Below are positions 21,493-58,637 of a DNA stretch of 64,000 bases, in pieces. The DNA is taken from positions 868,001-932,000 of the forward strand of contig NZ_CP101416.1 in assembly GCF_027942295.1 (NCBI RefSeq). The letters run 5' to 3'. Made by a program: the position numbers and the translations under genes. Each line of letters opens with the position of its first letter. Position 1 is the stretch's first letter. The stretch comes from Pseudanabaena sp. Chao 1811. Lineage in GTDB: Bacteria; Cyanobacteriota; Cyanobacteriia; Pseudanabaenales; Pseudanabaenaceae. The notes below the pieces were generated by a model. It ran no database searches. It saw only the letters and a list, made by a program, of their open reading frames with translations, and was not told the origin of the DNA.

Positions 21493-22428
21493 TCAGCGCA
21501 ATGCGATGTATCGGCTATAGGTTGCTAATAGAGTTAGCAAAGTACGGCGGGGTTCACGCAAAAAAATACGCCAATCGGAACAGATAGCACGGTTGATAAA
21601 ATCTCTACCAACATGGGGTGGTAGATTTAAACGAAAGGCGCGTCTTGCTAAGTAACGCAGATGGATTGCTCTGGCAAGGCTGTAGTGTTGTTTGACTAAA
21701 TCAGGAGCATATTCTCGCGCTCTCTCGATCAGTAAATCCCAGCCAGCTTCCATCCGATATAGTGATGCGGATAGCCCCGATGGACTGGCACGGTAAGCAA
21801 TCAATACGCGATCGATTCCTTCAATTTGCCAAGGAGACTTCTCTGGTCGCTGATAACAACTCACTCGAAATAGCCATTCGAGATCCTCAGAATAGCTCAT
21901 GTCCTCAGCAAATCCGCCTACCTGTGCGAAGACATCCGCACGCACCACAAGATTGGACATTGTCGTAGTAGGATTTTCGTAGAGAAAATCTTCGGGTTTG
22001 AGGTTAATGAGGCGGGAAGTAGAAACTTGCCCAGTGGATTCTCCTGCAAAGCTGATAAATTCTACCCGACTGAAGCTAACTGCGAGGTTGGGATTGTTGG
22101 CAAAATGTTGAACATGGGCGGCTAATTTGTCATTGCGCCAGATATCATCTGCATCGAGAAAAGCGATCAACTTTCCTTTAGCCATATTCACACCTCGGTT
22201 GCGGGTAGCCGACACCCCTTGATTGACCTGTGAGAGAACTTGGATACGGCGATCGCGCAGGGCATATTGCTTGGCAATCTCTAGGGTGTTATCGGTGGAA
22301 CCATCGTCAATAATTAAAAGTTCAAAATCCGCAAAAGTCTGATTGAGAACTGATTCTATCGTTTGGGCGATGAAACTTGTCGCATTGTAGGCGGGCATGA
22401 CGACGGATAGCATCAAGCGATCGCTCAT
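21493..22428 (-). CDS. Glycosyltransferase family 2
   Basis: 311 residues from ATG 22428, which overlaps the stop of the flippase gene by 4 bp (ATGA), a sign of translational coupling. A longer frame to 22551 lies inside the flippase gene and is rejected. The GT-A core has LSVVMPAYNATSFIAQTIES, IIDDGSTDNT and FLDADDIW. It adds one sugar to the lipid-linked repeat unit; donor and acceptor cannot be predicted. Confidence 0.9.
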   Translation of the reverse strand: MSDRLMLSVVMPAYNATSFIAQTIESVLNQTFADFELLIIDDGSTDNTLEIAKQYALRDRRIQVLSQVNQGVSATRNRGVNMAKGKLIAFLDADDIWRNDKLAAHVQHFANNPNLAVSFSRVEFISFAGESTGQVSTSRLINLKPEDFLYENPTTTMSNLVVRADVFAQVGGFAEDMSYSEDLEWLFRVSCYQRPEKSPWQIEGIDRVLIAYRASPSGLSASLYRMEAGWDLLIERAREYAPDLVKQHYSLARAIHLRYLARRAFRLNLPPHVGRDFINRAICSDWRIFLREPRRTLLTLLATYSRYIALR

Positions 22429-23726
22429 GGCTGCACCTCCGATGGCGTGAGCATAACTTTTGAGATGTTGCGCGTTACCCACAGGGAATACAAAGGTAAG
22501 GTGATCGCATGGGCAATCAGAACAGCAGCAGCTACGCCGATAATATTCCAATTAACACCGATCAATAGGGCGATCGCAAAGAATGTCGTAAAGAACATAT
22601 TCCAGCGTAGATCCCAATCAGGTTTGTCCAAAGCCCATAAAACTCTAGATGCAGCATTGGCAAAGGGTCGGGGAATTGCCGACAGACAAATCAAGATTAA
22701 AATAGGAATCGCAGGCAGCCATTTCTGTCCAAATATAATCGGTACATAAATTGGGGCAAACATAGATTGCAAAAGGACAAGGGGGAAAACAATCCAAGCG
22801 ATCGTTTTGAGACTACTGAAATAGCGTTCTTTAAACTGGGCTGGATCGGAGCGCGCGGCACATAGGTGCGGAAACAAAGCCGAATCGACAGCATTGATCG
22901 CACTCATGCTAATTCCCAATCCTGCATTAAAAGCAAAGTAATAAATCCCTAAAGCTTCTACACCGAGAAATCTGCCTGCAATTAAGTAATCAAGATTATT
23001 TCTGAGGGTATTCATCAGCTTCACTCCTAAAACACTCCGCCCAAAGCGGACAATTTCCTGCCAGTTGACGAGGGTAAACTGGCGCGATGGTCGCCAAGGA
23101 TTATTGAAATAATGCACAATTACCCAGACTGGCCCCACAATTACCTTGGGTAAAACAATCGCCCACATTCCCAACCCCAAAAAAGCGAGAATGATTGTCA
23201 AAATATTATCAATAGAAACCTGCAATCCGTTAGCTAGAGCCATCACATGCAGACGATTTTCCCGTTGGGTTAAGGAAGCCTGTACTAGGGATATGGGAAT
23301 CATCAGATACACCAATGCCATGATACAAATTGGCAGAATAATCTGATTATCTTTGTAGAACCAAGCAACGGGGACGGAAATCAAACATTGGGTGATGAAT
23401 AGAGAGCCACAGACGATCCAGTTGAGACAATAGGCGGTTTGACAAAGTTGTTCTAAATCGCTTTCATCGGATTGAATCAGCTTGTCCCAAATTCCATTCT
23501 GGGTAAATACATTCACAAACTCGTTGGTGGTCAAGACTAGCGCTGCCAAACCATAGTCATATTTAGAGAGTAGTCGCGCTAAGACAATCGTAGCGGCTAA
23601 TCGAGAAATCCGAATGAAGAGTTCGGACAAGCCTAGCCAGCCCAGATTGCGGAGAAATCGACTGGCGAGTTTTTGTTTGATCGTATCGATTAATTTGCCA
23701 ATAGCTGACACAATAAAGCCTCCCAT
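22425..23726 (-). CDS. wzx: Oligosaccharide flippase (Wzx/MOP family)
   Basis: About 433 residues from ATG 23726. A longer frame reaches 23783, but it overlaps the upstream GT4 even more. The protein has about 12-14 hydrophobic helices. The N-terminal FLRNLGWLGLSELFIRISRL and TIVLARLLSKYDYGLAALV are typical of the polysaccharide-transport branch of the MOP superfamily. It should flip undecaprenyl-linked repeat units to the periplasmic side. It overlaps the preceding GT4 by 37 bp and the next GT2 by 4 bp, so it is inside an operon. Confidence 0.88.
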   Translation of the reverse strand: MGGFIVSAIGKLIDTIKQKLASRFLRNLGWLGLSELFIRISRLAATIVLARLLSKYDYGLAALVLTTNEFVNVFTQNGIWDKLIQSDESDLEQLCQTAYCLNWIVCGSLFITQCLISVPVAWFYKDNQIILPICIMALVYLMIPISLVQASLTQRENRLHVMALANGLQVSIDNILTIILAFLGLGMWAIVLPKVIVGPVWVIVHYFNNPWRPSRQFTLVNWQEIVRFGRSVLGVKLMNTLRNNLDYLIAGRFLGVEALGIYYFAFNAGLGISMSAINAVDSALFPHLCAARSDPAQFKERYFSSLKTIAWIVFPLVLLQSMFAPIYVPIIFGQKWLPAIPILILICLSAIPRPFANAASRVLWALDKPDWDLRWNMFFTTFFAIALLIGVNWNIIGVAAAVLIAHAITLPLYSLWVTRNISKVMLTPSEVQP

Positions 23727-24688
23727 GCGGTTAAGTGTTGATCCCAAGCATTTCTCACTGATTCCCTCCCGTTGATTCCCCAAGCGCTCAGGTCTGCTGG
23801 TGACATCTCACAGATCTGGGCGATCGCTTGGGCAAGAGCCTGCGGATTGTCAGGGGGAACAAGCAGCCCTATTCCCTGAGCCTGCTCGACTAAACCATCA
23901 ACGGCACTGACAATGATTGGTTTACCCGCTGCCTTAGCTTCTAAACAGACATTGCCCCAAGGCTCCCACCGTGACGGAATAATCACCACATCGCAATCCG
24001 CCAGAAAGGATGGCACGTCATCGACCTTACCAATAAACTGAACTTTGGGATTTCCTTCGGCTAATCGCTGCAATAAGTCTTCATCGGAACCATAGCCTGC
24101 GATTTTTAAATGGAAGTCAATTTGAGGGATTAATCTACATGATTGCAATAGAACATCGAATCCCTTTTGAGCATCAAATCTTCCATAGGCAGCGAAAATT
24201 AAGGGCTTAGTGATTGATTTGAGGGGAAGTCCTAAAAAGCGATCGCAGTTGAGACCTTGCTGAATCACACTTAGTTTAGCGGGTCTGACTAATTGGTGTT
24301 TGAGCATCCATGCTGCCTGAGCCTGAGAAACTACTAATGTGCGATCGGCACACCAATGACAGAGCTTTAACATCAAGCGAAATCTCGATGGAGAGGGTAC
24401 TTGCAACCGTTCAAAAGCAGCCGAATAATGATGATCTTGGATGACCAATTTTGACTTTTGCTTCAGGAATTTAAGTACTAACAGGCGAGGTAAGATTTTC
24501 CAAGAGCAAGCATCATGGACAAGAATAATATCTGGTTGAAAGTTACGGATACTTGCCTTAGCACGGTGCAATGGCGCGATCGCAAATTCAAACTGTTCCT
24601 TTAGTCGTGAAGCCATCAAACTACTGAGACTAGTCTTAACCCCCCCCATCCGCTCATCGCTGATTAAATTGATGATTTTCGCTTTCAT
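23690..24688 (-). CDS. Glycosyltransferase family 4
   Basis: 332 residues from ATG 24688, with GGAGCTTGAGG just upstream; the longer frame begins at a TTG. GT-B fold: N-terminal AKIINLISDERMGGVKTSLS and C-terminal donor site with SRWEPWGNVCLEAKAAGKPI containing the EX7E-type motif. It transfers a nucleotide sugar to the growing repeat. It is clearly paralogous to the next upstream gene: both have DHHYS and the identical EPWGNVCLEAKAAGKP block. Confidence 0.9.
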   Translation of the reverse strand: MKAKIINLISDERMGGVKTSLSSLMASRLKEQFEFAIAPLHRAKASIRNFQPDIILVHDACSWKILPRLLVLKFLKQKSKLVIQDHHYSAAFERLQVPSPSRFRLMLKLCHWCADRTLVVSQAQAAWMLKHQLVRPAKLSVIQQGLNCDRFLGLPLKSITKPLIFAAYGRFDAQKGFDVLLQSCRLIPQIDFHLKIAGYGSDEDLLQRLAEGNPKVQFIGKVDDVPSFLADCDVVIIPSRWEPWGNVCLEAKAAGKPIIVSAVDGLVEQAQGIGLLVPPDNPQALAQAIAQICEMSPADLSAWGINGRESVRNAWDQHLTAWEALLCQLLAN

Positions 24689-25813: not shown

Positions 25814-27112
25814 TTAATGTTCGGAAACCTCCTTTAGCATCACGACCTTTGGCTTATCTTCTTGGAGACGATCTTTGGCTTTAAAACCAATTCCCATCAT
25901 GACTAGTCCTGGCCAAAAGAGATAGGCGAGAATTTCCAGATTCTCGCCAAAGGTGTAGAACATCAGGACTAAAACCATACTTAATCCCACCTGTGCGGAT
26001 TCACTTTTTTGGGCTTTGACCGTCAGATCGCCAAAACTCCAAGCCATCGGTACTGCCAGCGCCAAAAAGCCAACAATCCCTTTAACATAGAGCAGTCCAA
26101 ACCAACTGTGATGAGAACCGATGGGCATATGCTCGACAAGGTGAGGTCCCTTTTCAACAACACCATGTCCCCAGATTGGCGCTTCCTTTTCCCAACGATA
26201 GCGAGCAATTCGCCCCAGAGCCGCCCGCACTCTCGAAGAATCCTTCCTTGCTGCGGTAAATTTCTCATTGAAGGTTTCGATCGCTTCTAAAATTTCATTC
26301 AAGGTAATACTACCGATAAAGCTCACAATCCCTAAGCCAATCAACGTCATCGGACGACTGAGTTTAGAGAGCAGTAATGTGATTAGCCAAACCGCAGGCA
26401 TAGCAATGAGAGCTAGCCTTGATGCTGAAATCTGACACATCACAAGGCAACCTGCCATGCCTAACCAACGTAACTTGCGATCGCTATCCCGCAAAATCAT
26501 AAAGAAATAGATATTAGCCACAAATCCGAGGGCTGGAGCCCAAGGCGTAAATAAGCGCCATCTCGGTTTATGTTCCCCTGGATCGATTTCGTATAACATC
26601 ACCTCAAAAAAATCGGGACCAGGACCGCCCACAGCGCGAAGTGGTGAAACATAGAGCTTTTGAGGTAAATGGATATAAAAGGCGAGAACAAAGGGTATGG
26701 AAATCGCAAGGGTAAAGGCACAGATTTTAGATGCAGCACGGTACATTAGCTGCGGTCTAATGTTTAAACAACCAATCAATGGATATAGAGCTAATAAAGC
26801 CCATCCCTTTGCCCACCCGATTGTCGATTTAATGATTTCTCCTAAGCCCAGATTGAAATCTAGATGCCCCATAATCAAAGCAAGCTGCATTATTAACATG
26901 CTCACAACCCAAATTCTCACCCCCCAAGGAATTGTAATCCTTTCTTCTATAGGAGTTTCGTCATTTTGTTTCCATAATTGAACGCAAAGATGCCCAAATA
27001 AAAGCCAAGCTAATACTGCACCAAGAATATAGAGACCACCGATAGCATAAAAGCCATAAGTCCAAATGATGGAAATCCAGATTGCTTTTTCCGCAAAGTT
27101 TTGTGGCTTCAT
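25814..27112 (-). CDS. O-antigen ligase/polymerase-like membrane protein
   Basis: About 432 residues from ATG 27112, which overlaps the stop of the Wzz-like gene (ATGA). The frame extends to 27184 within that gene and is not used. Some 10-11 hydrophobic helices are visible, with a large loop between about residues 280 and 340 (WEKEAPIWGHGVVEKGPHLV, then HHSWFG). This resembles the catalytic periplasmic loop of the Wzy/WaaL O-antigen ligase fold. It most likely polymerises or transfers the flipped repeat units. Wzy and ligase cannot be told apart from the sequence. Confidence 0.75.
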   Translation of the reverse strand: MKPQNFAEKAIWISIIWTYGFYAIGGLYILGAVLAWLLFGHLCVQLWKQNDETPIEERITIPWGVRIWVVSMLIMQLALIMGHLDFNLGLGEIIKSTIGWAKGWALLALYPLIGCLNIRPQLMYRAASKICAFTLAISIPFVLAFYIHLPQKLYVSPLRAVGGPGPDFFEVMLYEIDPGEHKPRWRLFTPWAPALGFVANIYFFMILRDSDRKLRWLGMAGCLVMCQISASRLALIAMPAVWLITLLLSKLSRPMTLIGLGIVSFIGSITLNEILEAIETFNEKFTAARKDSSRVRAALGRIARYRWEKEAPIWGHGVVEKGPHLVEHMPIGSHHSWFGLLYVKGIVGFLALAVPMAWSFGDLTVKAQKSESAQVGLSMVLVLMFYTFGENLEILAYLFWPGLVMMGIGFKAKDRLQEDKPKVVMLKEVSEH

Positions 27113-28563
27113 GATTCTAGGATATTGGGTTGATTTGGCTTGATTTTGCCTTTGATGTAGGTGGTGGTTTCTTTGCGCCACCACAGCAAAACTAAGCCAG
27201 TGGTAATGAAAATCGAGGCAACTCCAGCACCTACAAATACAATCGATGGTTTGGGAGAGGTTTTCTCATCGGGTAAAGTTGGTTCCGCCAGTAATTGCGT
27301 GATGGGATAGGAGATAAAAATGTCGGACTTGCCAAGGTCTAACTTAGCTAAGGTGGAAGCGAAGACTGCCTCAGCAATTTGAACTTCTCGTTGCAGATTA
27401 TCCAATTTGGATTGTTTTTGAACAAGAATTTTTAACCTTGCTTCTAATTCTGCAATCTGATTGCTCAGAGCTTCATTTTGAGCAACTATGCCCTGCTGGT
27501 CTGTCTGAATTGCCACTAAATCACGGAAGAGACTCTCGCGACTAGAGCCAGATTCACTTTTAATACTGAGATGCTGAAGAACAGCAAGATTAACCCTGCG
27601 TCCTAATAGAGAACTAGCGCGATCAAGCATCGCCACACGGGCTGCTTCTCTTCTCGCAGCTTCCTTGATCACTAGAGGATGATTATCTCCCCACTTTGTC
27701 TTTAAAACCACCAATGTGGAACTAGATTCATTGTAATCCTTTAAATTCTGCTGAAATAACTGATCGGCTTGGAGTAGAAAGGCATTGGCGGCTTCAGGGA
27801 CAGTGATATCGAGGTCAGAGGATAGCTGCGCTAAACGGGTAGTGGCTTGTTGGACTTGAGCATAGCTTTCTGCCCTTTGCTTGCGAAGTTGTTCGATATT
27901 ATTTGATAAATCCTTCACTTGATCGCCAGAACTGAGACCTGACGAAGCTTTATATTCGGAGAGCGTCTTTTGAGCTTGCTGGAGCTTGTCCCTTGCGGAG
28001 GTTAAGGTTGCTTGACTTCCCTGTTCGCGTTTGGCAACCTCCTCTAACCTCAATTCACTCAATTTCGTCTGGAGAGCATCATAAATAGCGTGCGATCGCA
28101 ATTGGGCATCCTTGGCTGTAGGACCTGTAACTTCAAATTCCATAATCGAAGTGTTATCCACTAATTTGACCTTTGGTTTGCCCAGTTGCTTGAGGGGAAT
28201 CTTCAACTGATTCGCAGCTTCTTCTAAAACCGACTCATTGGTAATGAGAAATTGATAGTTTGCCCGAGGGTCCATCGAGGCACTGCCAAAGGGAGAGCTA
28301 CTAGAGGAACTAGCTTGTCCAATTTCAGGCAAATTGACGCTCACCCCCGAACCAGCCCCCGGAACAATCACTGCCCAACTGCTGGTATAGACTGGCTTTG
28401 CTGTTTTGAGATAGGCTAACGTGATTCCCCATAAAGCCGCATTAGCAGCTAAGCCGATCGCCGCATATCTCGCATATCGCCAGAACTTATTTTTCTTCTC
28501 TAAAGGATGCGCATCAGAGCTACTGGCTATAGATAGGGATTTGATAGGGTCATTGATGGTCAT
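27109..28563 (-). CDS. Wzz/GumC-like polysaccharide co-polymerase (no kinase domain)
   Basis: 484 residues. TM1 is at about 32-50 (YAAIGLAANAALWGITLAYL), and TM2 at about 448-466. Between them is a long periplasmic alpha-helical region (about 175-430) with coiled-coil heptads, for example QIAELEARLKILVQKQSKLD. This is the Wzz/GumC fold that sets chain length and links to the outer-membrane channel. No Walker motifs or Tyr-rich tail follow TM2, so a BY-kinase partner would have to be encoded elsewhere. GAGGT precedes ATG 28563. Confidence 0.85.
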   Translation of the reverse strand: MTINDPIKSLSIASSSDAHPLEKKNKFWRYARYAAIGLAANAALWGITLAYLKTAKPVYTSSWAVIVPGAGSGVSVNLPEIGQASSSSSSPFGSASMDPRANYQFLITNESVLEEAANQLKIPLKQLGKPKVKLVDNTSIMEFEVTGPTAKDAQLRSHAIYDALQTKLSELRLEEVAKREQGSQATLTSARDKLQQAQKTLSEYKASSGLSSGDQVKDLSNNIEQLRKQRAESYAQVQQATTRLAQLSSDLDITVPEAANAFLLQADQLFQQNLKDYNESSSTLVVLKTKWGDNHPLVIKEAARREAARVAMLDRASSLLGRRVNLAVLQHLSIKSESGSSRESLFRDLVAIQTDQQGIVAQNEALSNQIAELEARLKILVQKQSKLDNLQREVQIAEAVFASTLAKLDLGKSDIFISYPITQLLAEPTLPDEKTSPKPSIVFVGAGVASIFITTGLVLLWWRKETTTYIKGKIKPNQPNILES

Positions 28564-28566
28564 ACC

Positions 28567-29694
28567 TCATTTCCCCCCCCTAAATATCAAATTAAAAGGA
28601 GTCAAGAGAATATCGGTAATTGTCCGCACAACATCCCTTACGTCGGTCACAGTAGAGTCATAGCAACCAACTCCATCTTCGGGCATGAGGAATGGATTAT
28701 TAGTGTCATCGGTAGAATTACGGATGATTTCCTCCACATCGCGATCAAAAACCTTGGTTGCTCCCGTCTGGCGATCGGTGCGAACTAATACGGCTCTACG
28801 TGGTGCATTGGTAGGTGATGTACCACCAACGCAGTTAGCAGCAATCACTGCTTGGGATAATCTTGCCCCATAGGGAAAGGAAGAGCCGTCGGATTTAATC
28901 GAAGAACTGGCATTATTAGTCGCAGGAGTTGTGAGATTCGATAGAAACACTCGAATTCCGGGGGGTGTAATTTGAGAGGGTCGGACTAAATTGTTCTGCT
29001 GCTGGGGTAACTCAGGCACAATCACGCGATCGCCAGCAATCAGAGCCACATCTTCGACTTCCTCACCTGTAAATATGCCCGACAGATCGACAACTTGCTC
29101 TAGCCCATCTCTGATCACCCGAATTTCTTTGACATTTGCCATTGGGGTAATGCCACCTGCTCCACGCAAAGCCGCAGTCAGATAACGCTCTGGAGGATTA
29201 TCGCCCGATGATTGATTTTGCTGTAAGCTGCGGTCTTCCGCAGAGCGATTGTTGATCGATACTCGACCTGCCTGAAAAGTTGCCCCAGAAACGCTTACTT
29301 GAACGGCTGCCCATTGCAAAATACTGACATTTACTTGCAAAAATTGGGGCTGAAAGAACTTGCGATCGATTAATGTATGGTAAATTTTTTGCTTGACTTC
29401 GGATATTTCCAAACCTTTGACAGCCAAAGGCTCGAGATAGGGAATTTGAATGTTGCCATCGATGTTGACTTCATAAACACCACTAAACAATTCGCCTTCA
29501 GGGATAAGTAGCCTGATGCGATCGCCGGGGGATAGGGGCAAGGCTAAGACTGGTTTTACCCCAAGTAAGTCGATAAAATTTATGGAGAGCGTGGCAATCA
29601 TGAAAACCGCCCAAAACCTAAGGTGACTCCAATCGTCTTTGACCATCGAAGTGCGTTTAGATTTTGTGTCAAACTGATTGCCCATCTTATCCAT
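28567..29694 (-). CDS. Polysaccharide export protein (Wza-like)
   Basis: 375 residues, or 372 if the second ATG at 29685 is used. A membrane-export signal at about 27-52 (FWAVFMIATLSINFIDLLGV) ends near VLALPLSPGDR. The PES domain follows: PLSPGDRIRLLIPEGELFSG and YEVNIDGNIQIPYLEPLAVK. One or two SLBB-like segments follow (VSVSGATFQAGRVSI). This is the outer-membrane secretin-like channel of Wzy-dependent export. No lipobox Cys is visible at the processing site. It lies 2 bp after the fusion gene and 3 bp before the Wzz gene. Confidence 0.86.
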   Translation of the reverse strand: MDKMGNQFDTKSKRTSMVKDDWSHLRFWAVFMIATLSINFIDLLGVKPVLALPLSPGDRIRLLIPEGELFSGVYEVNIDGNIQIPYLEPLAVKGLEISEVKQKIYHTLIDRKFFQPQFLQVNVSILQWAAVQVSVSGATFQAGRVSINNRSAEDRSLQQNQSSGDNPPERYLTAALRGAGGITPMANVKEIRVIRDGLEQVVDLSGIFTGEEVEDVALIAGDRVIVPELPQQQNNLVRPSQITPPGIRVFLSNLTTPATNNASSSIKSDGSSFPYGARLSQAVIAANCVGGTSPTNAPRRAVLVRTDRQTGATKVFDRDVEEIIRNSTDDTNNPFLMPEDGVGCYDSTVTDVRDVVRTITDILLTPFNLIFRGGK

Positions 29695-29696
29695 CT

Positions 29697-31847
29697 TTAG
29701 ACAGCACTATTTTTACGATTAAATAAAACAGCGATCGTTTTGAAGATTAAGAGGATGTCATATTGCAAGCTCCACTTCTGTTTATATGCTAAGTCAAACT
29801 CCATTACTTCTTCAAAGATTTTGACGCTAGATCGACCATTCACTTGCCATACACCAGTCATCCCCGGTTTGACATCGAGACGACTCCATTCTGTCATTTT
29901 GGCATCGGTATATTCATTCTCTAGCTCATAGAGTCCAACTTCATTAAAAGTAGGTGGTCTTGTCCCCACAAGGCTCATATCACCTACCAAGACATTAAAA
30001 AACTGGGGAAGCTCATCTAAGCTAGTTTTACGCAGAATTTTGCCTACTTTTGTGACTCGCGGATCGTTACTATTCTTAAAGAACTTACCGCTATTTGCAT
30101 CTGAACCATCGGCAGAATCAGCGATCTGATTGGTCACTTTTTGTTTGAGCATTTCGGCATTTTTGACCATGGAGCGAAATTTCCAGATACCAAAAGGCTT
30201 ACTCATCAGTCCTGCGCGTTTTTGCTTAAATAGTACTGAGCCATGACTTTCTAATTTAATGGCGATCGCAAGGGGGATGAATAAAATTGCGGTGATGCTG
30301 AGACCAACTAAGGAACCAAAAATATCGATGATGCGTTTGGGGAAACTGCGTACAGAGGGATGTACGGGGACTCTCGGATCCAACTCGATCGCAGGATAAA
30401 TAAAATACATCACATACGCAATCACACATACAATCGGAATGCCAAGCAGAAAATGATAGAGACGATGCAAATTTGTGGCAAGGCGAAGAAATCGAATTTT
30501 TGCAACATTCTGCACTTTTCTGCTTGGTAAACGATTAGTGCGTGTAGATGGCTCAATGAAAAAAACATGATCGAGATTGGTCATTTTTAAGATGGAAACC
30601 ACCTGTGGATTAACGCTCCACAGGACTAATTCTGTGGTTTCAGTTTTACCAGATTGAATATCCGCTTGGCGCAAGATTTTCAAACAGGAAATCAATGCAC
30701 CAAGCCCTGAGCTATCAATAAACTCGGTATTGGACATATCGATAATAATTTTATGAAAACTATCATCTTCTTGGCATAGTTCTCGAAAATCCTCCTTAAG
30801 TCTTCGCGCTTCGGGATTAAAGATGTTTTTGGGTGTACTGATTAAAGCGGTATCTTGAAAACTCGTAATTTGGACGTTGGATAAACCCGATTTTAATGAC
30901 GGCTGATCATTACCTGTAGGAATATAGACTGACTCAGGATAACGGTTGGCAATTTCTTCTGAACGGACGATCAGGAGGTCTAAGGCTCTCAATGAGCGTA
31001 GTAATCTTGCCGAAAGACTCAAATCACGAATGCGGGTTTTGGATTCGATGAAAATAACTTGACTTCTGCATAGATATTTTGCCGCTACTAAAAAGGGGAC
31101 AGCCACCCCAGCACCAGTCGAAATTGTCAATGCGGGACGTTTTTTAGAAAATACACGAATGGCTAATAGTAGGTTACGGACTAAGTTCGGCAAATTTCGA
31201 TTAGTGGGACTATGCGCCCAATAAGCTTTTTCATCCTTAAGTTCTGATTGGGTCGTGCCAGTTTTAAAGGTAATCCAATCGCGTTGCTCGAATTGCTGCC
31301 AATATTGACTTAGACCCTGCATGGCTTTGAAATGTCCACCCGATGAGCAAACCAGCATGATTTTGCGATAGTCTTGGCTAGGATAGCGATCGCTGAGATA
31401 TTCGCATAGTGGACTATCTTCTCCAAAACTAGGAGAACTACGGGATATCGTAATCAGCTTCAAAAATTTAACTAAGTCGGCAGGCGATCGGGCGATGAGT
31501 GTACCTTGGTTTTCAAGATCATCTGCCATCTCTAGTTGATGATCGTCAACATGCTCATGGAATTGGGCTGTACGGGGTACTAAGATATAAGGCTTATCAA
31601 ATTCTTCCAGTAATAGTGCTGTTCCTTCCCCGCAGTGAGCAATCACGGCACTTGCTTGCTCAACATTTTTCTTAAATTGGTTTTCAGGCATTACTTTGCT
31701 GACATTGACATTGTCAGGTAAGCGAGTTGCTGCCCCATATTGGATAGTGACTTCTTCAGTAATGATTCCCTCTTTCATTAACAAATTAATCCAATCCATT
31801 AAGGCATTGAATGGATACTGCTCAGTGCCGACTGTAACTAGTATCAT
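29697..31847 (-). CDS. Four-part fusion: Alg13-like, Alg14-like, STAS, phosphoglycosyl transferase
   Basis: 716 residues. (1) About 1-155: [20 protein letters not shown] and [20 protein letters not shown] match Alg13/MurG C-domain glycosyltransferases. (2) About 165-315: [20 protein letters not shown] and [18 protein letters not shown] match Alg14/MurG N-domain. (3) About 335-445: a STAS domain with [18 protein letters not shown]; Ser379 follows Asp378. (4) After a membrane segment at about 465-485, residues 505-716 are a bacterial sugar transferase: [24 protein letters not shown] and [20 protein letters not shown] then VGTRPP. Part 4 should start the repeat on undecaprenyl phosphate; parts 1 and 2 could add the second sugar. 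The Alg13 half precedes the Alg14 half, the reverse of MurG. First gene of the operon. Confidence 0.9.
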
Positions 31848-56264: not shown

Positions 56265-58637
56265 ATGACGCTATTTAAACCTGCGATCGCCTTGATGAAT
56301 CATCTTAAATACCCCCAAAAATTTTTGCTGATTAGCTTGCTATTTGTTTTGCCACTAGCGCTCGTGATGAACTTGCTACTGTCAGAAATCAATAGCCGCA
56401 TTGACTTTACCCAAAAAGAAATCTATGGCAACACTTACCTCCGTCCTCTAAACCAACTCTGGCAGCATATCCCCCGCAGACAGTTAATTTTACAGCGCCA
56501 GTTCTATAAAGATACCCAAAGTTTCGGTCAAATATTACATTCTCAGTCACAGGAATTAATCGATTTACAAAACAAGATTGATCAAGCATTTGTCAAGCTC
56601 ACAAATGTCGATCGCCAATTAGGTAAGGTCGTCCAAACTAGCGATAAATTGCAAGATATCAAGTTTGCATGGCTTAGTCTGAGAGATAGTCAAGAGTTTG
56701 CTTCTTTTCGGAATCATGATGCCCTTCTCGAACAACTCGATCGCTTCCGTATCCATATAGTTGACTTCTCAAATTTGATTCTCGATCCAGATCTTGATAC
56801 TTACTATCTGATGGATGCTAGTGCCGTGAAATTGCCAGAGATGCAAAAGCTCCTGCATCAAATTATGCAGATAGAGGCAGAAGTTATCTTTAAAAAAGAA
56901 ATTAGCAATGCTAATAAAGAGAAATTAATTGCTTGCATTAGCTTATTAAATAATTACAATAATGCGATCGCCGCAAATCTAGAGAGAGCTTTTAACAATA
57001 ATCCGAGCCAGAATCTCCGTAACTCTCTCAATATTCCTCTGCGTAATTTTGTTGTTAGTGTCAGTGAATTTAACGCTTATACCAATGAGTTAGTAAGACA
57101 AGAAAATAAATTTAATTTTACAGATAGTTTTTATCGGCAAGAGATGGAAAGTACTTTAGATGACAGCTTTACACTCTGGCAACAGGTTGTTGATCGCCTC
57201 GATGAGCTATTGACATACCGCATTCAAGGATTTGAGCAACGCAAACAATTTATCTTGATGTTTGTGGCGGTTATTTTGATCGCGATCATCTATTTATTTA
57301 TTGGCTTTTATCTATCGGTAATGCGAACTGTTCATCAATTAGACATTGCCTCCAAACAAATGACTAGTAATGGTGCGATATCAATACGTCTCGATAGTAA
57401 AGATGAATTATCGATGGTTGTGCGCTCATTTAACAATGTGGCGATCGCTCTACGGGAATCTGAGGAGAAATATCGCAGCATTTTTGAAAATTCGGTTGAT
57501 GGCATCTTTCAAACTACGGTTGATGGCAAATACATCAGTGTGAATCCTGCCCTAGCCAAAATTTATGGCTACAGATCAGTTGAGCAGATGCTGGAGGAAA
57601 TCGTTGATATTCAGTCACAGCTTTATGTGGATCGCGATCGCCGTCAACAGTTTCAGACCTTGATGGATGCAAATGACACCATTACAAACTTTGAATCACA
57701 AATCTATAAACGCGATCGCAGCAAGATCTGGATTAGTGAAAATGTGCGCGCAATCCGTGATGGCAATGGCAAAATCATTTATTACGAAGGCACGGTCGCA
57801 GATATTACACAAAGGAAACTTGCCGAAATAGCATTAGAGAAAGCTAATCAACAGATTTTATCGCTGAATAACCGCCTTAAAGAAGAGAATTTACGCATGA
57901 GTAGTGAGCTAGAAGTGACCCGCAAACTTCAGCAGATGATTTTGCCCAAAGAACAAGAACTATCATTGATTTTGGGATTAGATATTGCAGGATTTATGGA
58001 ACCTGCTGCTGAGGTGGGTGGCGATTATTACGATGTACTGCAACAGCATGGGCGGATTAAAATCGGGATAGGTGATGTGACGGGACATGGCTTAGAAAGC
58101 GGAATGCTGATGATTATGGTACAGACTGCCGTGCGTACCCTATTGCAAAGTGAAGAAAATGATCCTGTCCGTTTTTTAGATACACTCAATCGCACCATTT
58201 ATGGAAATGTGCAGCGCATGTCATCGGATAAAAATTTAACGCTCTCTCTCATTGATTACGAACATGGCAAATTGACGTTAAGTGGTCAGCACGAAGAAAT
58301 TATTGTGGTGCGCAAAAATGGAACTCTAGAACGTTTTGATACAATTGATCTCGGATTCCCCATCGGTCTAGAGGAAGAGATTTCTAATTTCCTCGCTCAA
58401 AAGCAAATTCATTTAGATTTAGGCGATGTCATGGTGCTATATACCGATGGGATTACGGAAGCAGAGAATGAATCTCGCCAGCTTTATGGTGTGGATCGTC
58501 TATGTGAAGTGGTACGCCAAAATGTAGACAAATCTGCTAGTAATATTCGACAGGCGGTGATTGAAGATCTGCGATCGCACATTGGTACGCAAAAAATCTA
58601 TGACGACATCACCTTGCTAGTTCTCAAACAAAAATAA
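56265..58637 (+). CDS. Membrane HAMP-PAS-PP2C serine phosphatase (RsbU/RsbP type)
   Basis: 790 residues. TM1 at about 20-40 and TM2 at about 329-352 (ILMFVAVILIAIIYLFIGFY) bracket a 285-residue external sensor rich in helices. A HAMP domain follows to about 400, then PAS (about 400-515: YRSIFENSVDGIFQTTVDGK), a short coiled coil and the SpoIIE-type PP2C domain (about 560-789). Metal-binding motifs are EVGGDYYDV, GDVTGHGLESGM, LYTDGITEAE and YDDITLLVL. It should dephosphorylate a STAS antagonist. Candidates here are the free STAS (362-685) and the STAS part of the fusion at 29.7-31.8 kb. Confidence 0.9.
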   Translation: MTLFKPAIALMNHLKYPQKFLLISLLFVLPLALVMNLLLSEINSRIDFTQKEIYGNTYLRPLNQLWQHIPRRQLILQRQFYKDTQSFGQILHSQSQELIDLQNKIDQAFVKLTNVDRQLGKVVQTSDKLQDIKFAWLSLRDSQEFASFRNHDALLEQLDRFRIHIVDFSNLILDPDLDTYYLMDASAVKLPEMQKLLHQIMQIEAEVIFKKEISNANKEKLIACISLLNNYNNAIAANLERAFNNNPSQNLRNSLNIPLRNFVVSVSEFNAYTNELVRQENKFNFTDSFYRQEMESTLDDSFTLWQQVVDRLDELLTYRIQGFEQRKQFILMFVAVILIAIIYLFIGFYLSVMRTVHQLDIASKQMTSNGAISIRLDSKDELSMVVRSFNNVAIALRESEEKYRSIFENSVDGIFQTTVDGKYISVNPALAKIYGYRSVEQMLEEIVDIQSQLYVDRDRRQQFQTLMDANDTITNFESQIYKRDRSKIWISENVRAIRDGNGKIIYYEGTVADITQRKLAEIALEKANQQILSLNNRLKEENLRMSSELEVTRKLQQMILPKEQELSLILGLDIAGFMEPAAEVGGDYYDVLQQHGRIKIGIGDVTGHGLESGMLMIMVQTAVRTLLQSEENDPVRFLDTLNRTIYGNVQRMSSDKNLTLSLIDYEHGKLTLSGQHEEIIVVRKNGTLERFDTIDLGFPIGLEEEISNFLAQKQIHLDLGDVMVLYTDGITEAENESRQLYGVDRLCEVVRQNVDKSASNIRQAVIEDLRSHIGTQKIYDDITLLVLKQK

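Follow-up and report, generated by a model that had tools for sequence, protein, structure and literature searches.

A four-part PssE-PssD-STAS-phosphoglycosyl transferase fusion in Pseudanabaena, a candidate switchable initiator of exopolysaccharide synthesis

The four-part protein and its gene cluster

The window, that is the whole stretch of 64,000 nucleotides that was analysed, encodes a Pseudanabaena protein in which two glycosyltransferase halves, a STAS domain and a phosphoglycosyl transferase (PGT) are read in one frame of 716 residues (Table 1). Four Pfam domains were matched in this frame, all of them above the curated cut-offs: Glyco_tran_28_C at residues 1-127 (E 6e-9), Alg14 at 220-309 (E 1e-12), STAS at 330-435 (E 9e-12), and Bac_transf (PF02397) at 504-709 (E 3e-62). 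The NCBIfam profiles PssE (residues 1-120), PssD (164-308, 5e-24), WelK, and those of exopolysaccharide sugar-transferase families were matched as well, all below their curated cut-offs; in the WelK profile, positions 169-295 were aligned to residues 2-125. The scores for PssD and PssE were 85.4 and 80.1 bits, short of the equivalog cut-offs of 110 and 120, and at this level the two halves are relatives of, not equivalogs to, the NCBIfam PssD and PssE.

Both halves of a PssD/PssE pair are present with their motifs, HCGEGT (71-76) and EHVDDHQ (98-104) at the donor site of the PssE-like half and GGH, with His172, in the PssD-like half. The STAS fold carries a serine in its DSxG loop. The C-terminal part has the Bac_transf domain and the PglC fold of a small monotopic PGT; a re-entrant helix (about 502-533) and the catalytic pair D611-E612 are predicted from motifs, and the Asp-Glu pair at 611-612 is found in all four-part proteins.

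An AlphaFold model of the protein (pLDDT 79.7, pTM 0.50) was compared piecewise with known folds. For residues 1-141 the match is to the C-terminal halves of GT-B enzymes, YjiC among them (Z 12.5), for residues 161-311 to the N-terminal half of MurG (Z 15.7, rmsd 2.2), for residues 323-435 to the STAS proteins TM1442 (Z 15.7) and RsbV in its complex with RsbW (Z 13.8), and for residues 497-711 to PglC (Z 18.2, rmsd 3.0). The original prediction of an Alg13-like, an Alg14-like, a STAS, and a PGT domain in one frame was thus borne out by Pfam, NCBIfam, and fold comparison. Its four segments stand, but the Alg14-like half starts near residue 158-160 instead of about 165. The fold matches of both halves place the donor half ahead of the acceptor half, the opposite of MurG, as had also been proposed. 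In a separate model of residues 1-318 (pLDDT 88.1, pTM 0.59) each half is modelled with confidence and alone matches GT-B halves, but, as in the model of the whole protein, their placement relative to each other is of low confidence. Many of the alignment rows were unpaired single domains, and permuted pairs are beyond what a sequential aligner can detect. The linker at residues 447-495 is more likely an in-plane or re-entrant helix than a single membrane span; a single span would put the N-terminal domains outside the cell.

Both here and in the relatives that were read, the gene heads a Wza-Wzz-Wzy cluster. In the window, a Wzx gene lies further downstream.

Table 1. Coordinates of the four-part gene, its cluster, and related genes. 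Positions are those of the window unless they follow an L number; L and G numbers are our handles for loci and genomes.
Feature	Position	Strand	Evidence or remark
Whole four-part protein, PssE-PssD-STAS-PGT, type A, 716 aa, ATG start	29697..31847	-	Pfam, NCBIfam, PGT tree
Alg13/PssE-like donor-binding half, residues 1-155	31383..31847	-	Pfam, NCBIfam, fold match
Alg14/PssD-like acceptor half, residues 158-313	30909..31376	-	Pfam, NCBIfam, fold match to MurG N-half
STAS domain, residues 323-437	30537..30881	-	Pfam, fold match
Ser379 codon, predicted phospho-acceptor, D378-S379-S380-G381	30711..30713	-	Equivalent to SypA Ser56 (PMC10120452)
Hydrophobic or amphipathic linker, residues 447-495	30363..30509	-	Among proteins read, Pseudanabaena four-part proteins only
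Small monotopic PGT domain, residues 497-711	29715..30359	-	Bac_transf, PglC fold match
Wza-like polysaccharide export protein, next gene downstream	28567..29694	-	Poly_export E 9e-10; same neighbour in Pseudanabaena relatives
Wzz-like chain-length protein	27109..28563	-	Weak Pfam and NCBIfam matches; synteny
Wzy-like polymerase	25814..27184	-	Wzy_C E 3e-8; synteny
Wzx-like flippase	22425..23783	-	Polysacc_synt_3 E 8e-59
Type B copies	L088 7192-9339; L121, L124-L139	- (L088)	
RsbW-type proteins with WGCIFLL-like G2 box	L077 4047-4511; L087 6270-6740; L075 4283-4783; L084 2623-3084		
Genomes with PssD, PssE before STAS-PGT	G091, G175, G042, G078, G314, G304, G024, G340, G014, G187, G286, G278		

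Two-part relatives and the origin of the fusion

In a phylum search of 386 sampled cyanobacterial genomes, the best matches listed outside Pseudanabaena were almost all of the two-part STAS-PGT type, with lengths of roughly 320-420 residues. A STAS domain was present at all 27 best-matching loci read outside the family (L010-L036), including that of a three-part protein in genome G109. Among the matches listed, 12 genomes carry separate PssD-like and then PssE-like genes upstream of STAS-PGT and on the same strand (Table 1); the gap between them and the PGT match is 0.4-1.8 kb, and the STAS part falls inside it. The split relatives are therefore ordered Alg14, Alg13, STAS-PGT and the fusion Alg13, Alg14, STAS, PGT, which indicates that the two halves were swapped on fusion.

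The reversed order had been called a circularly permuted MurG. In cyanobacteria the nearest homologues are encoded by two separate genes, so that the protein is better regarded as a new joining of such genes. Independent re-fusion of split Alg13/Alg14 genes is on record, and the order is not without precedent, since the Alg13-Alg14 fusions of Entamoeba and Dictyostelium share it (PMC8993221); these differ in being eukaryotic ER proteins that carry neither PGT nor STAS. The pairs PssD/PssE, EpsE/EpsF, and Cps14F/Cps14G, as well as WelK, contain the same two domains with the motifs kept; the three pairs are split and WelK is fused in the MurG order, whereas the window protein is fused in reverse. 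To our knowledge, pairs of the PssD/PssE type were not known to be joined to a STAS-PGT.

We found 45 distinct four-part proteins in 27 genomes of one cyanobacterial family, in Pseudanabaena and two other genera (G390 and G416). The survey of other cyanobacteria that had been suggested thus gave the same domain order in 26 further genomes. When the first 318 residues were searched for within the order, 30 of 38 genomes gave a match, and an exact-peptide-word scan of genome contigs matched only the family of the window protein and one other cyanobacterium. The expectation that such a fusion would be unusual was right for the whole protein, the four-part form being confined to one family among the matches listed in the cyanobacteria searched. 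An assembly join or a frameshift artefact was ruled out, since the same genome holds a second full-length copy (53% identity) and the architecture recurs in 26 more genomes from the family.

A maximum-likelihood tree was built from PGT domains, including the 44 distinct ones found among the four-part proteins (that of the window protein and 43 others). A single branch separates all 44 from the rest (support 98/94; recovered in 97% of bootstrap trees), and by this tree the four-part form has a single origin. The G109 protein, which comes from another family and has the order Alg13-STAS-PGT, groups with the two-part proteins in the same tree, and a similar fusion must therefore have arisen on at least one other occasion. 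Further three-part proteins with a divergent PGT part are encoded in G419 and G420. At locus L084 (3135-4556, minus strand) we observed an independent three-part Alg13-STAS-PGT fusion without the Alg14 half, next to a convergent gene for an RsbW-type kinase.

The acceptor serine and the two paralogues

The motif D378-S379-S380-G381 aligns with D-S56-S57-G of SypA and with SpoIIAA. Ser379, which had been proposed as the phosphorylated residue, is the first serine of this motif and matches SypA Ser56 (PMC10120452), the canonical acceptor position. S380 was set aside as the acceptor because the sequences of the SypA primers place Ser56 directly after the Asp (PMC10120452).

Pseudanabaena carries two paralogues, type A, to which the window protein belongs, and type B. 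In type A (21 of 21 proteins), Ser379, His172 of GGH, Gly73 of HCGEG, EHVD(D/N)HQ, and all the other catalytic motifs checked are retained; Ser379 is also present in each of the 37 two- and three-part relatives. The type B genes sit elsewhere in the genome, amid unrelated genes. Their products keep the Asp-Glu pair of the PGT, while all 22 have Tyr or Ala at His172 and Asp at Gly73, the first Gly of GEG; Ser380 is replaced by Ala in 21 of the 22. Ser379 is found in 14 of the 22 and is replaced by Gly or Thr in the remaining eight. The four-part protein of G416 likewise has Gly at the acceptor position and has lost the GGH and GEG motifs.

Type B is probably a PGT with a decayed second transferase, since the GGH histidine and the GEG glycine are lost, the PGT pair is kept, and the GGH histidine is required for the activity of Agl24 (PMC8993221). 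In some paralogues STAS is retained although the acceptor serine is gone, which argues for at least one role of STAS that is independent of phosphorylation. The type A/type B pair offers, within one genome, a natural comparison between an intact and a motif-stripped copy.

RsbW-type kinases and a proposed switch at the first step

The genes 3′ of several STAS-PGT genes encode proteins of Pfam HATPase_c_2, of the RsbW type. Comparison of the places listed by two phylum searches gave an RsbW-type kinase gene adjoining STAS-PGT in at least 37 of 87 genomes, at 10-882 bases from the PGT match; diverged kinases may escape the query. Among the matches listed, the adjoining gene was always downstream (37/37) and, with one exception, on the same strand (36/37). 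In several of these clusters a free STAS gene is added. Most STAS-PGT genes of the Nostocales had no adjoining kinase among the matches listed for the kinase query used. In most of the kinases read, the N box is of the usual form and the G2 box resembles GRGL. In several kinases from PssDE clusters the G2 box is changed to WGCIFLL, and these may on that account be non-catalytic.

With two-part STAS-PGT genes, PssD/PssE upstream and an RsbW-type kinase downstream, the four-part fusion condenses a conserved gene set. By its layout, this set resembles a partner switch connected to the enzyme that starts polysaccharide synthesis. A dedicated kinase gene was looked for beside the Pseudanabaena four-part gene and none was found, so a trans-acting kinase is assumed. 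The same genome encodes other RsbW-type kinases, among them those at C1:4728607 and C1:823135, and PP2C phosphatases, and the nearest homologue of the STAS-PGT-linked kinase lies at C1:578401.

We consider it rather probable that the four-part protein initiates a Wzx/Wzy-type exopolysaccharide as a fused enzyme that can be switched on and off, with STAS as the phospho-switch. Such a mechanism fits the place of the gene at the head of Wza-Wzz-Wzy, with Wzx downstream. The C-terminal PGT would move a sugar-1-phosphate onto undecaprenyl phosphate (Und-P), giving Und-PP-sugar, and the PssE and PssD halves would form a GT-B enzyme, either in cis or between two chains. A pair of the PssD/PssE type acts after the initiating PGT. 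The GT-B enzyme would then extend the lipid-linked sugar by a second one, acting on the kind of substrate that bacterial EpsE/EpsF (Alg14/13-type) pairs use (PMC8993221). This precedent and the PssD/PssE genes placed directly before STAS-PGT in the 12 genomes listed make it plausible that the protein makes the first two sugars of the repeat, as first suggested. STAS, between the two enzymes, would be the regulatory input: an RsbW-type Ser kinase would phosphorylate Ser379 and a PP2C phosphatase would remove the phosphate. By analogy with SypA, of which the S56A variant is active and the S56D variant inactive (PMC10120452), the unphosphorylated form may be the active one. Lipid carrier and nucleotide sugars would then be committed only on demand.

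It appears unlikely that both enzymes work and that STAS is merely a structural or docking element, for dimerisation or partner recruitment, with no phospho-switch. The substitutions at the acceptor position in type B and G416, where STAS is nevertheless kept, the STAS domains of SulP transporters (PMC8256260), and the missing kinase neighbour in Pseudanabaena would agree with such a role; however, the acceptor serine is fully conserved wherever the whole enzyme looks intact, and the RsbW-type kinase gene recurs directly downstream in other families. Still less probable is a reverse flow of information, by which the membrane-bound STAS would titrate an RsbW-type kinase or anti-sigma factor and so report polysaccharide synthesis to gene regulation. 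Canonical STAS proteins do act on RsbW-type anti-sigma factors (PMC8256260) and the kinase genes adjoin STAS-PGT, but every STAS found in the STAS-PGT family is welded to the same type of PGT, and by the genetics of sypA and sypE it is the kinase that acts upstream of the STAS protein (PMC10120452). That the Alg13/Alg14 halves are vestigial and the PGT alone is active, as the motif losses of type B and G416 might suggest, is very improbable for the window protein, given the intact GGH, HCGEG, and EHVD(D/N)HQ of type A and the need for the GGH histidine in Agl24 (PMC8993221).

The switchable initiator can be set beside several known systems. In Vibrio fischeri (SypA/SypE) and Nostoc punctiforme (HmpU/V/W), the output of a STAS phospho-switch controls a polysaccharide-dependent trait; SypA and HmpV are free STAS proteins with no known target (PMC10120452, PMC6495340), whereas the window STAS is fused to the initiating enzyme. 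In Myxococcus xanthus, phosphorylated EpsW activates the initiating PGT EpsZ (PMC12802240), one recent precedent in which a small signalling domain controls an initiating PGT post-translationally. There, the PGT is a large monoPGT, and a response regulator encoded as a separate protein takes the place of the fused STAS. Among the closest published relatives is all4160 of Anabaena PCC 7120, a glycosyltransferase that carries STAS at its N-terminus (PMC8256260); a passage of that paper citing Wang 2007 gives genes of this type as required for heterocyst envelope polysaccharide. The likeness, STAS N-terminal to a sugar transferase, is drawn from the literature description, not from sequence, and all4160 has no PssE/PssD halves. 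The two-part STAS-PGT is thus already in print, its form with the acceptor serine is widespread in cyanobacteria, and the four-part fusion is the addition made here. No published account of this fusion or of the STAS-PGT/RsbW pairing was found in open papers, few subscription papers being covered.

A STAS fused to the initiating transferase, with a kinase gene adjoining in dozens of genomes, suggests this enzyme as a candidate target of outputs of the SypA/HmpV type. More tentatively, the effector that polysaccharide partner switches have so far lacked may be the initiating PGT itself, with a cis-fused STAS and a co-encoded RsbW-type kinase in many cyanobacteria, and with switch, initiator, and second transferase welded together in Pseudanabaena. 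If so, Ser phosphorylation would be added to the few known post-translational controls of Und-P commitment, and stand-alone STAS proteins of the SypA and HmpV kind may have PGTs as their targets in trans. This also suggests how slime production could be switched at its first step.

Other partner-switch genes were seen in the same genome. At C1:822705-824136 a STAS gene adjoins a fused PP2C/HATPase_c_2 frame and at C1:4728294-4728942 another adjoins an RsbW-type kinase gene; both look like complete partner-switch kits. Within the window, a free STAS protein of 107 residues with DSSGLG is encoded at 363-686 on the minus strand (C1:868363-868686), with no kinase gene seen beside it. A PP2C (SpoIIE-type) phosphatase domain at 58047-58628 on the plus strand (C1:926047-926628) belongs to an open frame of 799 residues, possibly a partner-switch phosphatase.
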